A stretch of DNA of 39,509 bases, from assembly GCA_018065615.1 (NCBI GenBank), contig JAGHSY010000055.1, positions 1 through 39,509 on the forward strand. Reading direction: 5' to 3'. The notes under the pieces were generated by a model. It was not told the origin of the DNA, did no database searches, and saw only the letters and a list, made by a program, of their open reading frames with translations. The position numbers and the translations under genes are program-made. Source of the stretch: Candidatus Colenecus caballi (GTDB taxonomy: Bacteria > Bacteroidota > Bacteroidia > Bacteroidales > Bacteroidaceae). Of the stretch, positions 17,483 to 22,204 are shown piece by piece. Each line of letters begins with the position of its first letter. The stretch's first letter is position 1.

Positions 17483-18694
17483 ATGAAGAAATTTACAGCC
17501 ATCTTATCACTGGCACTTGTCATGAGCAGTGTCCAGGCACAGGATTCATTCAGAGTACGTGTCAGCCAGCCCGAACACGGAAAAGTCACGGTTTCACCGG
17601 CGGTTCCGGCCGACGGGATGGTAAAGGCCGGAACGGTCCTGACAATCAAGGCCGATGTCACCGACCCGGGATGGGTGCTGGAAAGCTGCTACTACCTGTC
17701 AACGGACAAGGGCATGTCCTGGCCCACCAACAAGGAGTCAATGGAGAACAACTTCAAGGTGACGGTTGACAACAACATGACAGTAGGCGCATCAATCATC
17801 GAAGCAGCACGGCTGGAGGGATATCGGACTGTAAATGACGTGGTATTTGCACAGCCGGGCAAAAAGCCGCTCAAGTACGATGTGTTCATACCGGACGGGG
17901 CAAAGAACCTGCCCTGCATAGTCATAATCCACGGCGGCGGCTGGTCTGCCAACAATGAGGACATTATGCGCGGACTGGCACGCGAACTGATAAAGGGCGG
18001 CAAGTACGTGGTCTGCAGCATAGATTACCGCTGGATTGGCAAGGCCGATGGCGACGATATGCCGAACACAATGAACCAGCTCATTGAGGACTGCTACGGC
18101 GCCATACTTCACATTAGGGAACATGCAAAAGAATACGGAATAGACCCCAAACGCATTGCCACTACCGGTGACAGCGCCGGCGGACACCTGTCATCGGCCA
18201 TGATCACGCTGGCCGGACGCATTGGTGACGGCGGTTTCGGGAACGGTGTCTATGAGTACCTGCCCACCTACATGCCCAAGGGGATGACTGCTAAGAAGGC
18301 ACGCAAGCAGCTGCTCAAATCCATCAGGGCCGCTGCACCCAGCTACGGCGTCTTTGACCGCGCCACCCTGTCACGTTTCGCCCAGGGTATGGAGGTCGAG
18401 GCCCAGATGGCCATCACCCCCGATGACAACATTCCTTCAATCAGGGAACGCGCCATTCCGCAGTACTTCGTTCTGGGCACCAATGACCGCACCGTCAGCC
18501 GCACACCTATTGAAAAATACGTTGAAAACCTGCAGAACGCAGGCCAGCGCGCCGAACTTGTCATGGTTGAAGGAGCCAGCCACGCCTTCTTTGACTGGAA
18601 GCCGGACAAAGGCACCAAGGACACCTTCGAAAAGTACGGTGTCCCCTACGCCGCAGACATGATGCGCTTCTTTGACAGCGTGTTCTATAAGTGA
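17483..18694 (+). CDS. Exported alpha/beta-hydrolase esterase (feruloyl/acetyl esterase-like)
   Basis: Secreted carboxylesterase-like enzyme of 403 residues. The start at 17483 (MKKFTAIL) gives a clean signal peptide ending VQAQ; ATG at 17477 adds two residues. Residues 20-100 form a beta-sandwich domain (VRVSQPEHGKVTVSPAVPADG). The hydrolase domain has the oxyanion loop IIHGGGW, the nucleophile elbow TTGDSAGGHLSS, the acid region FVLGTNDRTV and the catalytic His in GASHAFFDW. The HGGGW and GDSAGG pattern is that of BD-FAE/acetylesterase hydrolases. With the divergent GH54 enzyme it probably strips acyl groups from arabinoxylan; substrate specificity is inference. Confidence 0.82.
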   Translation: MKKFTAILSLALVMSSVQAQDSFRVRVSQPEHGKVTVSPAVPADGMVKAGTVLTIKADVTDPGWVLESCYYLSTDKGMSWPTNKESMENNFKVTVDNNMTVGASIIEAARLEGYRTVNDVVFAQPGKKPLKYDVFIPDGAKNLPCIVIIHGGGWSANNEDIMRGLARELIKGGKYVVCSIDYRWIGKADGDDMPNTMNQLIEDCYGAILHIREHAKEYGIDPKRIATTGDSAGGHLSSAMITLAGRIGDGGFGNGVYEYLPTYMPKGMTAKKARKQLLKSIRAAAPSYGVFDRATLSRFAQGMEVEAQMAITPDDNIPSIRERAIPQYFVLGTNDRTVSRTPIEKYVENLQNAGQRAELVMVEGASHAFFDWKPDKGTKDTFEKYGVPYAADMMRFFDSVFYK

Positions 18695-18762
18695 TCAATG
18701 GGGACAGTCCCTGCGCAACAGGGACTGTCCCCGTTGTGCAAGGACCGTCCCCATTGTGCAAA
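18695..18762. repeat. REP-like palindromic repeat, copy 1 (before the ABC gene)
   Basis: Starts right after the esterase stop. Arms 18697-18713 and 18719-18735 pair over 17 bases with one mismatch around the 5-base loop CGCAA, built on the core GGGGACAGTCCC. A degenerate extra unit (GGACCGTCCCCATTGTGCA) follows to 18760. The same core and GTTGTGCA flank recur at 20592-20653 and 21108-21138, so this is a dispersed family rather than a simple terminator. Confidence 0.8.
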
Positions 18763-18776
18763 ATAAAATAAATAAT

Positions 18777-20591
18777 ATGAACCTGTTCAAACTTATCCGC
18801 AGCCTGATGCCCTACGTAAAGCCTTACAAGTGGCTTGTAGTGGTAACTCTTATTCTCACACTCATCGGTTCACTCATGGCGCAGGTCAACGCCGTTGTGC
18901 TTGACCGGACCGTCGATGCCGTCAACGCGCTGGTCATATCGGAATCCTTTGCCTGGAGCAAGGCGGCACGCATACTGACCATAATAAGCATTGTCCTTCT
19001 TGGAAAGGAAGTGCTGTCAGCGCTGATAACCTTTGCGCAGAACTACTATGGTGAGCGCATGCGCATATTCGTTTCCAAGGACCTGTCACAGAGTATCATT
19101 GACAAGATTCTCACGTTCCGCATGTCCTTCTTCTCAGCGCAGGACAACGACACCGGCAAGCTGACCACCCGCATTGACCAGGGCGTGAGCAGCCTTTCAC
19201 GCACGGTGCAGAACTTCTTCATAGACCTGCTGCCGCTGTTCACCAGCGCCGTCCTGGCACTCATCCTAATGTTCGTGGCCAATGTCTATGTGGGACTTAC
19301 CGCCCTTTTCATCGTGCCAATTTACTTCTGGATAACCTACCGGCAGGCAAAGAAGCTGAAAGGCTGGCGCCGCAACATGCGCAACACGCGTGAGGAGAAA
19401 AGCCACGGAATCATGAACATAATAGAGTCCATGAACGTCATCAAGTCATTCAACCGCCAGAAGATTGAAAGTGACAAGCAGTGGCAGATGCAGACCGTCT
19501 ACAGCGAGAACCAGATGAACGTACGCCGCACCAGTTTCTACTATGACGGCATGAAGAGTTTCGTACGCCAGACCGGCACAGTACTCATAATCATTCTGAC
19601 CGCCTACCTGGTGCTCATCGGATATCCGGGCATGACCATAGGTAAAATAATGTACCACGTCATGCTGTTCGGCAACGTGACCGCACCAATCACCCAGCTG
19701 CAGCGCATCTTTGACGACATGAATGACGCCCTGATTTACGCCGAGGGCTTCTTTGACATTGTGAATTCCGAGACCGATACCGAACCGTCCGGAACATACC
19801 GTCCCGAGAGCGTGAGCGGTAAGTTTGAAATACGACATGTCGATTTCACCTATCCCAACGGCACCAAGGCGCTTCACGACATCAACATGGACATTGAAAG
19901 CGGACGCATCACAGCATTCGTCGGATTGTCCGGAGCCGGTAAGAGCACAATCATAAACCTGCTTGACAAGTTCTACGAACCTGACTGCGGCAGCATAAAG
20001 CTTGACGGCGTGGAACTGAGGGATTACGATACAAAGTTCCTGCGCGACAACATCGGACTTGTGCTGCAGAAAAACCACATCTTTGACGGGACAATTGAGG
20101 AGAACATACGTTACGGTAAGCCCGATGCCACATTTGAAGAGGTGGCGGAAGCCGCGCGCAAGGCGTTTCTCTATGACCAGGTCATGATGCTTCCTCAACA
20201 GTTCCAGTCAAAGGCCCAGCAGCTTTCCGGCGGACAGCAGCAGAGGGTTGCCATTGCACGCATGTTTTTGAAGAATCCACCGATAATTTTCCTTGATGAG
20301 CCCACAGCCAGTCTTGATGCCGTGGCCACTGAACAGATCAAGGCCAGCATAGACGCCATCAAGAAGAACCGCACCGTGATCATCATTTCACACAGCATTT
20401 CACAGATCATTGACAGCGACACCATCTACGCTCTCAAGGACGGGCGCGTGGAACAGTGGGGTGACCCCGATGAGGTCTACCGCCAGGGCGGAATCTACAA
20501 GGAGATTGTCGATGCATCGGCCCGCAGCCTGAACATTGAAAAGCTGGCCCACACCATTGACGCCGACGGTGACGGCATCATGTTCAACTGA
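18777..20591 (+). CDS. ABC transporter with fused membrane and ATPase domains (exporter)
   Basis: Half-transporter exporter of 604 residues. The start at 18777 lies just after the repeat; longer in-frame starts would translate the repeat and the end of the previous gene. The membrane domain (about 1-325, six helices, e.g. WLVVVTLILTLIGSLMAQ) is followed by the nucleotide-binding domain. That domain has Walker A GLSGAGKST, Q-loop LVLQKNHIFDG, signature LSGGQQQRVAIARMF, Walker B IIFLDEPTASLDA and the H-loop in IIISHS. It should act as a homodimer unless a partner lies elsewhere. The substrate is unknown. The gene is bracketed by palindromic repeats within 15 bases upstream and at its stop codon. 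Confidence 0.92.
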   Translation: MNLFKLIRSLMPYVKPYKWLVVVTLILTLIGSLMAQVNAVVLDRTVDAVNALVISESFAWSKAARILTIISIVLLGKEVLSALITFAQNYYGERMRIFVSKDLSQSIIDKILTFRMSFFSAQDNDTGKLTTRIDQGVSSLSRTVQNFFIDLLPLFTSAVLALILMFVANVYVGLTALFIVPIYFWITYRQAKKLKGWRRNMRNTREEKSHGIMNIIESMNVIKSFNRQKIESDKQWQMQTVYSENQMNVRRTSFYYDGMKSFVRQTGTVLIIILTAYLVLIGYPGMTIGKIMYHVMLFGNVTAPITQLQRIFDDMNDALIYAEGFFDIVNSETDTEPSGTYRPESVSGKFEIRHVDFTYPNGTKALHDINMDIESGRITAFVGLSGAGKSTIINLLDKFYEPDCGSIKLDGVELRDYDTKFLRDNIGLVLQKNHIFDGTIEENIRYGKPDATFEEVAEAARKAFLYDQVMMLPQQFQSKAQQLSGGQQQRVAIARMFLKNPPIIFLDEPTASLDAVATEQIKASIDAIKKNRTVIIISHSISQIIDSDTIYALKDGRVEQWGDPDEVYRQGGIYKEIVDASARSLNIEKLAHTIDADGDGIMFN

Positions 20592-20653
20592 TTGCACAAC
20601 GGGGACTGTCCCTGTTGTGCAGGGACAGTCCCCGTTGTGCAAGGTGCGTCCCT
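20592..20653. repeat. REP-like palindromic repeat, copy 2 (after the ABC gene)
   Basis: Perfect 23-base inverted repeat (20592-20614 and 20620-20642) with a 5-base loop TTGTG, starting one base after the ABC stop. The arm contains GCACAACGGGGACTGTCCC. A degenerate unit (AAGGTGCGTCCCT) follows, as in copy 1. It would form a very stable hairpin and could end or protect transcripts from both sides, but there is no U-run. Confidence 0.85.
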
Positions 20654-20658
20654 CCTGC

Positions 20659-20856
20659 TCACTTTATACGCAACTCTTCAAGCTGCTGCTGGACCATTGG
20701 CAGAATGTCAGGCTTCTCTTCAGGGAGTATATACATCCAGCGGGAGAACTCCACCACGGCTGAACGGCGTATGCGGAGCATGATTTCCTGCTGCTCCTTT
20801 TCAGGAAGCTTGTCCATGTTGTAGTAATACTGGAAGACCAGGCGCGTGAACTCCAT
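20659..20856 (-). pseudogene. C-terminal fragment of an unrecognised protein
   Basis: The minus strand encodes a coherent helical 65-residue segment from Met at 20856 (FTRLVFQYYYNMDKL, IRRSAVVEFSRWMYILPEE, MVQQQLEELRIK). The frame stays open upstream to 20964, but that part is antisense to the nuclease remnant and is not protein-like. I read it as the 3' end of a longer gene whose 5' part was lost near 20858; a small intact gene cannot be excluded. The family is not recognised. Confidence 0.4.
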
Positions 20857-20860
20857 GTGA

Positions 20861-21106
20861 AGATCCCATTTGGGACAGCTCAGTTCGTACGTTTCCTGCG
20901 TCAACCACGTCCTGAAAAAAGACGGAGACAACCCAACCATAGGGCTTTTAATATGCAAGAACAAAGATAATGTGTTCGCGCAATACTCACTGGAAGGCTA
21001 CAACCAGCCGTTAGGCATTTCAGAATTTAATGGCGTGAACCTGCTGCCTGAAGAATACAGACACAGCCTGCCTTCAATTGAGGATATTGAAAGCGGGCTG
21101 TCATGA
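20861..21106 (+). pseudogene. Remnant of a YhcG/DUF1016-type PDDEXK nuclease (C-terminal end)
   Basis: The plus strand reads GQLSSYVSCVNHVLKKDGD, NPTIGLLICKNKDNVFAQY, LEGYNQPLGISEF and LPSIEDIESGL. This is the C-terminal part of DUF1016 (YhcG-like) nucleases. A TGA at 20858-20860 closes the frame upstream, and the N-terminal two thirds, including most of the nuclease core, are absent. It lies head-to-head with another 3' fragment and ends just before repeat copy 3. It is presumed non-functional. Confidence 0.7.
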
Positions 21107-21107
21107 C

Positions 21108-21138
21108 TTGCACAACAGGGACAGTCCCTGTTGATCAG
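21108..21138. repeat. REP-like palindromic repeat, copy 3
   Basis: CAACAGGGACAGTCCCTGTTG at 21113-21133 is palindromic except at the central base, preceded by TTGCA as in copies 1 and 2. It follows the stop of the nuclease remnant and immediately precedes the promoter of the AlkZ-like gene. Confidence 0.75.
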
Positions 21139-21139
21139 T

Positions 21140-21170
21140 TTTGTAGTTTGAAACAAAGGCGATATTTTTG
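21140..21170 (+). promoter_or_regulatory. Promoter of the AlkZ-like gene
   Basis: TTTG at 21140-21143 and TATTTTTG at 21163-21170 are 19 bases apart, a full match to the Bacteroidetes -33/-7 promoter. The -7 box ends 5 bases before the ATG at 21176, so the transcript would be leaderless or nearly so. Confidence 0.65.
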
Positions 21171-21175
21171 CTGAC

Positions 21176-22204
21176 ATGAATCCAGTCAGAGCCAGACTAC
21201 TCAACCAGCAGCTGGTGGCACCGCAGTTCTCCAGCCCCGAACAGGTGGTGTCATACATGGGCGCCATGCAGGCTCAGGACTACCGTCTTATGCGGTGGGC
21301 TGTGGCCATGCGTACAAAGAAACCGTCAAGTGAAGCGTTCAGGAAAGCTTTTGACAGCGGAGCCATAGTGCGCCAGCACCTTATGCGGGGTACCTGGCAG
21401 CTCATTGCCGGACAGGACTGGCCATGGATTATGGGTCTTTGCGTACCTAAAGCCAAGGCTGTCATCACCGGATGGATGCATGCCAACCACATTGACATTC
21501 CACAGGATGAGCAGAACAGAATCAGAGAAATCATTGTACAGACGGCGGCTGACAAAGGCAGCGTGACCGAACAGGACTTCAATCAGGCTCTGCTTGAAAA
21601 GGACATTGTCATGGACAAGCACCGGCTGTCCTACCACATACGCTTCAATGAACTGAGCGGTGTGCTTTGCAGCGGCAATCTTGATTCCAGGAAAGCAACC
21701 TACCGTCTGGCTCCGCAAGTAAAGAACACAATGGAAAGGGATGAATCATTAGCCCTACTGGCCCGCAGGTACTTCCAAAGCCGATGTCCCGCCACTTTTG
21801 AAGACTATGTCTGGTGGAGCGGACTGAACACCGGCGACTGCCGCAGGGGCATTGAACTCATCAGGAATGAACTGCATGTGGAAAAAATCGGTGAACGGGA
21901 ATTCTACGTTCATGATTCATGCCGTACACGCGGTTTCAAGAAGGACACCAACCTGCTGCTTCCTCCCTTTGACGAATACCTGATAGGCTACAAGAGCCGC
22001 GAAATTGTGCTTCCACCTGAACACCGGCACAAAGCCCACAACAACAGCGGCATATTCTATCCTGTCATTGCCCACGACGGCATAATATGCGGAAACTGGA
22101 GCCCCTTCAGCAAGAAACCCCAGTTCGAATTCTTCGATGAAAAGGCCGGTTATGACCTGACCGATGAGTTATCGGTCTTCAGGATATTTCAGGAAATAGT
22201 CTGA
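21176..22204 (+). CDS. Winged-helix DNA glycosylase-like protein (AlkZ/HTH_42 family)
   Basis: 342-residue member of the HTH_42 (DUF1006) superfamily, whose studied members AlkZ and YcaQ are DNA glycosylases that excise alkylated or crosslinked bases. The family's catalytic QxQ motif is present as MQAQDY (Q32, Q34), followed by MRRTW-like RQHLMRGTWQLIAGQDWPW read in order. The C-terminal half has LLPPFDEYLIGYKSRE and GNWSPF-type segments typical of the family. It is cytoplasmic with no signal peptide. The start is supported by the promoter ending just upstream. Its 3' end overlaps the convergent lipoprotein gene by 36 bases. The exact lesion substrate is unknown. Confidence 0.78.
   Translation: MNPVRARLLNQQLVAPQFSSPEQVVSYMGAMQAQDYRLMRWAVAMRTKKPSSEAFRKAFDSGAIVRQHLMRGTWQLIAGQDWPWIMGLCVPKAKAVITGWMHANHIDIPQDEQNRIREIIVQTAADKGSVTEQDFNQALLEKDIVMDKHRLSYHIRFNELSGVLCSGNLDSRKATYRLAPQVKNTMERDESLALLARRYFQSRCPATFEDYVWWSGLNTGDCRRGIELIRNELHVEKIGEREFYVHDSCRTRGFKKDTNLLLPPFDEYLIGYKSREIVLPPEHRHKAHNNSGIFYPVIAHDGIICGNWSPFSKKPQFEFFDEKAGYDLTDELSVFRIFQEIV

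Follow-up and report, generated by a model that had tools for sequence, protein, structure and literature searches.

How REP-like repeats spread through bacterial genomes is an unsettled question, and the experimental work considered here concerns the GTAG REPs of Proteobacteria. Di Nocera et al. (2013; PMC3733652) named a different, little-studied group, the TIRYTs and TIRtrons, together with families of terminal inverted repeats (TIRs) that carry the motif GGGGWSAS and of which some occur in dimers or clusters. According to Quentin et al. (2018; PMC6006769), most TIRYTs belong to subclass 2.1 of TnpA-Y1, where REP-like sequences are reported to be absent. We describe palindromic repeats found in a 39,509-nucleotide stretch of Candidatus Colenecus caballi, most likely a gut bacterium (Bacteroidales; assembly GCA_018065615.1, contig JAGHSY010000055.1, positions 1 to 39,509), which we call the window, and follow them through the genome and its relatives. 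They are a clear new example of this known kind of repeat: the palindromes are very probably non-autonomous copies of the TIRs of a TIRYT, i.e., an HUH transposase that belongs to the IS200/IS605-RAYT superfamily and carries a helix-turn-helix (HTH) domain in addition, and they form a family of about a hundred members that lies mostly at gene ends and has probably been spread by this single-strand DNA transposase.

Results

Exact copies of the core GGGACWGTCCC occur five times in the window (starts at 18701, 18721, 20602, 20622 and 21118), and these make up three clusters of one 29-bp palindrome, TGNNCAAYRGGGACWGTCCCYRTTGNNCA, with a period of 20 bp. When at most one mismatch is allowed, the window holds five core matches against a mean of 0.47 in dinucleotide shuffles, none of 100 of which reached five. 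The second copy contains a perfect 23-bp inverted repeat (arms 20592-20614 and 20620-20642, with a 5-nt loop) and folds as single-stranded DNA at -31.1 kcal/mol, compared with -7.7 for shuffles (z = -10.1), and as RNA 9.7 standard deviations better than shuffles. A stop codon lies directly upstream of each of the three copies, and at the first the TGA of the upstream gene (18692-18694) itself forms bases 1-3 of the array. An earlier note on this DNA, made from the sequence alone, had described a three-copy palindrome family, two of its members bracketing an ABC gene behind stop codons and one of them a perfect 23-bp hairpin, and it was accurate on each of these points, although the limits of the copies are better placed as in Table 1 than as it had given them. 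Intrinsic terminators are an unlikely identity, as by eye no U-tract was seen after the window hairpins or after most of the others; an Rfam RNA was rejected, there being no Rfam match at gathering thresholds within 18500-21300.

The genome to which the window belongs (G000; 2,252,565 bases in 125 contigs) contains 89 exact cores and not one occurrence of the reversed control pattern. The surroundings of every one of these cores were examined, about 265 kb in total with the window counted in. The cores fall into 52 clusters (18 single, 31 double and 3 triple), and neighboring cores are spaced exactly 20 bp apart in 33 of 37 cases. The arm TGNNCAAYR is present in 49 of the 52 clusters; when the 104 outer edges are aligned, T stands at position -9 in 96 and G at -8 in 95, followed by two variable bases and CAAYR, and conservation drops off beyond position -9. 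Because the edge is this sharp in 104 aligned ends, the unit can be defined as TGNNCAAYR-GGGACWGTCCC-YRTTGNNCA. The GT[AG]G hairpin foot is found at 3 of the 104 cluster ends, i.e., at fewer than the roughly 10 expected by chance. At L084:2985-3059, two repeat units stand on either side of an apparent intrinsic terminator, a hairpin that has a run of T; and at L059:3094-3124, a two-unit array within a 388-codon gene reads through in frame and may be translated, its two cores being present likewise in the sister genome G014 (L138).

Pfam identifies two Y1_Tnp matches in G000, one of them above the cut-off. The gene with this match (C75:12775-13512) runs into the end of its contig, and its TGA stop codon opens a repeat copy; the N-terminal 22 residues that it lacks (MSRKNREKSPNGVYHVMIRGIN) stand at the start of contig C92, where an array (C92:132-182) comes after them, and the two pieces appear to constitute one transposase gene with palindrome arrays on both sides. 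G014 has two relatives of this transposase (63 and 64% identical), of which one (63%; L089:5996-6802) is complete and lies between inverted 47-nt arrays that are 91% complementary; when its locus was sought in G000 as a possible empty site, the left neighbor gene alone was recovered (C32). An AlphaFold model of the G014 protein, with 21 relatives as input, has a mean pLDDT of 86.7, and its best match in the PDB is 4ER8, the E. coli RAYT with a REP hairpin (E = 2.7e-7). The histidines of the HUH motif (H68 and H70), the catalytic Y127 and, four residues on, N131 are invariant in the 21 relatives, and the Y1_Tnp domain is found in all 21 aligned members. The C-terminal HTH of these members is matched by HTH_23 in 6, HTH_38 in 5 and HTH_28 in 5, and that of the reference TIRYT, P0001, by HTH_28 alone, at E = 0.15. 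The full-length G014 protein scores 60.8 bits with the NCBIfam model REP_Tyr_transpos, below the cut-off of 80. In the relatives L030 and L040, the transposase reading frame apparently enters the flanking repeat, which encodes the last residues. G000 also has, in three places (L017:1402-2346, C47:13976 and C40:383), members of a further Y1-like family, which is diverged, about 324-330 aa long and shared with other genomes of the genus; near its L017 member there is no exact GGGACWGTCCC core and one two-mismatch match.

In a comparison of 61 genomes, G000 has 117 occurrences of the full arm-plus-core pattern TGNNCAAYRGGGACWGTCCC, G014 has 55, G029 has one and the other 58 have none; TIRYTs that share 60% identity or more with P0001 are found in G000 and G014 only, the next best sharing 43%. 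The full repeat tracks the presence of one transposase lineage across these genomes. The bare core is less specific: counting G000, 10 of the 37 genomes examined in the genus hold at least 20 copies, and in the two others that were inspected (G023 and G007) the cores have arms that differ from those of G000. Other genomes of the genus possess TIRYTs of their own, each with different palindromes on its flanks, e.g., around GGGGACGGTTC, GGGGTCGTTT, GGGGTCAGACCCC or GGGGACAGGTC, and in most of the 21 loci, read by eye, the transposase gene has its stop codon at or close to the repeat.

A similar arrangement extends to a wider set of 80 loci, the best 80 of 569 confirmed in one contig scan, which lie in Bacteroidales and Firmicutes. 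The motif GGGGWCNG occurs in 54 of 80 flanks on the 5' side and 52 of 77 on the 3' side, and 44 of the 80 loci have it on both sides, compared with 8 of 80 single control stretches; the corresponding numbers for the stricter GGGGWSAS are 23 of 80 and 17 of 77, versus 3 of 80 controls. Exact inverted matches of at least 12 nt connect the two flanks in 48 of the 75 loci whose flanks were long enough (5 of the 80 were dropped), as against 11 of 75 when flanks were swapped between loci. TIRYT relatives on mobile records number 1 on phage and 13 on plasmids, all below 60% identity.

Genes were called with an in-house, simple hexamer model, which is unvalidated and underlies all counts of placement, stop codons, sister loci and junctions. 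On these calls, non-coding sequence makes up most of 43 of the 52 clusters, against a background in which 93% of the examined sequence is called coding (p = 3e-41). Convergent genes surround 22 clusters and co-directional genes 18, none lies between divergent genes, 8 are called inside genes, and 4 are one-sided near contig ends; divergent pairs account for 28 of all 174 adjacent gene pairs in the same stretches. The 8 inside calls include at least one artefact (L080:132, a gene call that begins within the transposase leader), one arm-less core within a gene (L066), and some gene 3' ends. In G014, 3 of 45 array junctions lie between divergent genes.

Among the 60 gene 3' ends that face clusters in G000, 21 have their stop at a distance of exactly 6 bases from the core, where the stop codon is the repeat edge itself, 19 of them with TGA, and the same distance is seen at 15 of 54 in G014, for which these counts use 105 of the 107 cores. 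Edges reading TGA number 24 in G000, and 19 of these are the stop of the facing gene. Because TGA edges mostly coincide with the stops of facing genes, we conclude that the repeats supply stop codons, as the TAG of GTAG REPs also does (PMC3733652). At L061 of G000, where the repeat is present, the stop of the gene is the TGA of the repeat edge, and at L136 of G014, where the repeat is absent, TAA stands at the corresponding place.

G014, with 107 cores, is 70-98% identical to G000 at matched flanks, and 12 of the 52 G000 clusters were matched on both flanks within the G014 stretches examined. An exact extra 20-bp unit is present in G000 at L083 compared with L153, and in G014 at L146 compared with L080; at another site (L085 in G000, L089 in G014), G014 holds a different palindrome, GGGGCCAGACCC.

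The repeats of the window and the genes around them are listed in Table 1.

Table 1. Positions of repeats and neighboring genes within the window
Feature	Position	Strand	Remarks
Alpha/beta hydrolase gene (BD-FAE / Abhydrolase_3)	17483-18694	+	Stop codon forms the edge of array 1
Repeat array 1	18692-18760	.	Two full units (cores 18701-18711 and 18721-18731); the third unit is degenerate, with its AGGACCGTCCC core at 18741
ABC exporter gene, MsbA-like, fused membrane and ATPase domains (ABC_membrane + ABC_tran)	18777-20591	+	Bracketed by arrays 1 and 2
Repeat array 2	20593-20656	.	Two units (20593-20641) and a degenerate partial unit reaching about 20656
Short open reading frame, possibly a gene fragment	20659-20964	-	No Pfam match; between array 2 and copy 3
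YhcG_C PDDEXK nuclease gene fragment	20870-21106	+	Covers profile positions 88-157 of 157; ends just 5' of copy 3
Repeat copy 3	21109-21137	.	Single unit
AlkZ-like DNA glycosylase gene	21176-22204	+	Downstream of copy 3

The 2.4-kb block at 18760-21107, comprising the ABC exporter, array 2 and two gene pieces, is absent from the orthologous site of G014, at which the hydrolase and AlkZ-like genes are adjacent and separated by one three-core array; the ABC exporter gene of G014 is on another contig of that genome (C6), without arrays. A two-gene block that lies between arrays in G000 (L081:3035-5283) is also absent in G014. When G014 junctions were mapped to G000, at least 400 bp of extra DNA was found at 5 of 15 junctions with arrays versus 0 of 41 without (p = 0.0008); and because the stretches were chosen around arrays, which favors finding extra DNA there, this excess is a lead and not a result. 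A possible, if tentative, reading of these differences is that the arrays are exchange points, at which gene blocks are gained or lost by recombination, with or without the TIRYT, and such a process would be compatible with a TIR origin of the repeats. Apart from the array-centered sampling, it is opposed by the reverse comparison, in which extra DNA occurs at 1 of 11 junctions with arrays and 3 of 42 without, and by the fact that three of the five extra-DNA blocks are bordered by an array at just one of their two ends; and a loss of the ABC block in G014 may be the alternative to a gain in G000.

The palindromes of G000 also harbor an insertion sequence (IS) of 1,620 bp, with a full copy at C6:2-1621 (L058:2-1621), ends TAGGGTGTTAAGTTAAC and a 398-aa open reading frame that has a sub-threshold rve match only. 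Twelve ends of this IS were located in G000 (contig ends L235-L246), most of them near contig ends, and none in G014. Of the 11 readable ends, 8 lie in GGGACWGTCC, 2 in GGGGTCWGACC and 1 elsewhere, such that 10 of 11 are inside repeat palindromes, and the insertion pattern suggests a 9-bp target duplication. IS elements that target REP sequences are known (PMC2817692), and this one resembles them in inserting within palindromes but differs in that its transposase has no family assignment.

Discussion

The copies and their anatomy, their placement, their co-occurrence with a transposase and its arrangement between arrays, its predicted fold and active-site residues, and the unit-length differences between sister genomes are all directly supported by the comparisons above. 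The mechanism that most probably connects them begins with the 20-bp-period arrays, which would fold into long hairpins when single-stranded, and with the replication fork, which would expose the single strands on which the transposase acts. The enzyme may recognize the hairpin by a conserved GGGGAC-type center and by family-specific arms; its tyrosine would cut, and units or short arrays would be excised and re-inserted, the copies spreading and growing or shrinking by whole units. Selection would remove those copies that land in genes and promoters and leave survivors mainly behind stop codons, where the TGN edge of the repeat often becomes the TGA stop of the gene. This chemistry is borrowed from the biochemistry of TnpA-REP and IS200/IS605 elements (PMC8266576, PMC6006769), and it is by analogy with these that we infer recognition, cutting, mobility and the link to replication. 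Recognition, cutting and spread are directly testable in this system because repeat and transposase form a well-defined pair: the 20-bp unit is regular, a close sister genome is available for comparison, and the transposase occurs only where the repeat does.

Several observations weigh against a TIR origin. The core by itself is unspecific, in that eight genomes of the genus besides G000 and G014 carry 21 to 116 cores, and G007, which is 97% complete and has 60 cores, is without any TIRYT hit. The transposase of G000 is in two pieces on two contigs. Only one clear pair of an occupied and an empty site was found (L061/L136), and the alignment around it is loose; no excision, insertion or cleavage was observed, mobility resting on sequence comparison. 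Lastly, copies of GGGGACGGTTC range from 0 to 206 across 49 genomes (the test covered the first 50 of the 80 loci), and their number does not depend significantly on whether this motif flanks the TIRYT found (p = 0.11).

More broadly, TIRYTs and their TIRs might represent a general single-strand transposition system of Bacteroidales and Firmicutes, with lineage-specific hairpin arms around a conserved GGGGAC-type center, whose arrays would serve as landing and exchange points. Their units would expand in steps of 20 bp and provide stop codons to the genes that they end, an IS of their own would be drawn to them, and blocks of genes, such as that of the ABC exporter, would be exchanged through them. 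We regard so general a scheme as doubtful.

If the repeats were instead host elements under selection, e.g., transcript ends, mRNA stabilizers or ribosome-stalling hairpins, their link to the transposase would be incidental. The hairpins are indeed strong, their positions are 3' of genes and, in G000, never divergent, and ribosome stalling is reported in E. coli for REPs that lie no more than 15 nt from a stop codon (PMC12306157). Yet the copies track one transposase lineage through 61 genomes, the same arrays flank the transposase gene, and the window copies have neither a following U-tract nor an Rfam match; moreover, 3' placement is equally the remainder to be expected after selection against insertion into genes and promoters. 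We consider a purely host-derived role improbable.

Least probable of all is the classical reading, in which a standard RAYT would move these repeats as GTAG REP/BIME elements, an identity rejected on the depletion of GT[AG]G at cluster ends: the transposase superfamily is the same, the palindromes are dispersed, clustered and 3' of genes, and the best fold match is the E. coli RAYT, but the edge reads TGNNCA, the protein stays below the REP_Tyr_transpos cut-off, and several members bear HTH domains of the subclass 2.1 type. The earlier note, which had likened the repeats to REP/BIME elements moved by RAYT transposases, was right in kind, as the enzyme is of the RAYT superfamily, although the missing foot and the HTH place it with the TIRYTs. 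What it had proposed to look for was found, namely, multiple genomic copies (89 exact cores in 2.25 Mb), a marked concentration of copies behind stop codons, and a gene for a Y1 transposase that has the repeat on its flanks (C75/C92 in G000, and the G014 relative). Its suggestion that the repeats delimit a mobilizable cassette has gained suggestive support from the absence of the ABC block at the G014 site, an absence that recombination between repeats explains equally well.

The element is better placed among the TIRYTs than among the RAYTs of GTAG REPs. With the REP/REPIN-RAYT systems of enterobacteria and pseudomonads it shares dispersed, often paired palindromes behind genes, a bordered HUH Y1 transposase, and repeat termini that provide stop codons (PMC3733652); it differs from them in having no GTAG or GTGG foot, a GGGGAC center in its place, and an extra HTH domain. 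Among open-licence papers, PMC3733652 and PMC6006769 were the only ones found on TIRYTs, and the matches listed for the core and for GGGGACGGTTC included no relevant title, neither of which is proof of absence.

The resemblance to the TIRYT/TIR systems of PMC3733652 is closer. As there, a RAYT-like tyrosine transposase lies between inverted repeats that are unrelated to GTAG REPs, the GGGGWSAS motif is present (here as GGGGACAG within the units), and, like some TIRs, the repeats are self-complementary and form a moderately abundant family with dimers or clusters. Different in the present case are the regular 20-bp period, the approximately 90-110 cores per genome and the Bacteroidales host, as well as the unit-length changes between sisters, the TGA edges, and the tracking of the cognate transposase across 61 genomes.

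In terms of the classification in PMC6006769, the transposase has the class 2 active site Y---NP, the NHVH and FQ motifs, and the C-terminal HTH (HTH_23/28) of subclass 2.1. Its active-site context, YIHQNP, is listed there under subclass 2.6 (YIH[QN]NP), so that we assign it to subclass 2.1 because of its HTH, FQ and TIR features, with motifs mixed with those of 2.6. Hairpin repeats both flank the genes and are dispersed in the genomes studied here, whereas none are reported near subclass 2.1 genes in PMC6006769. This case agrees with PMC3733652, and it qualifies the statement in PMC6006769 that subclass 2.1 lacks REP-like sequences.

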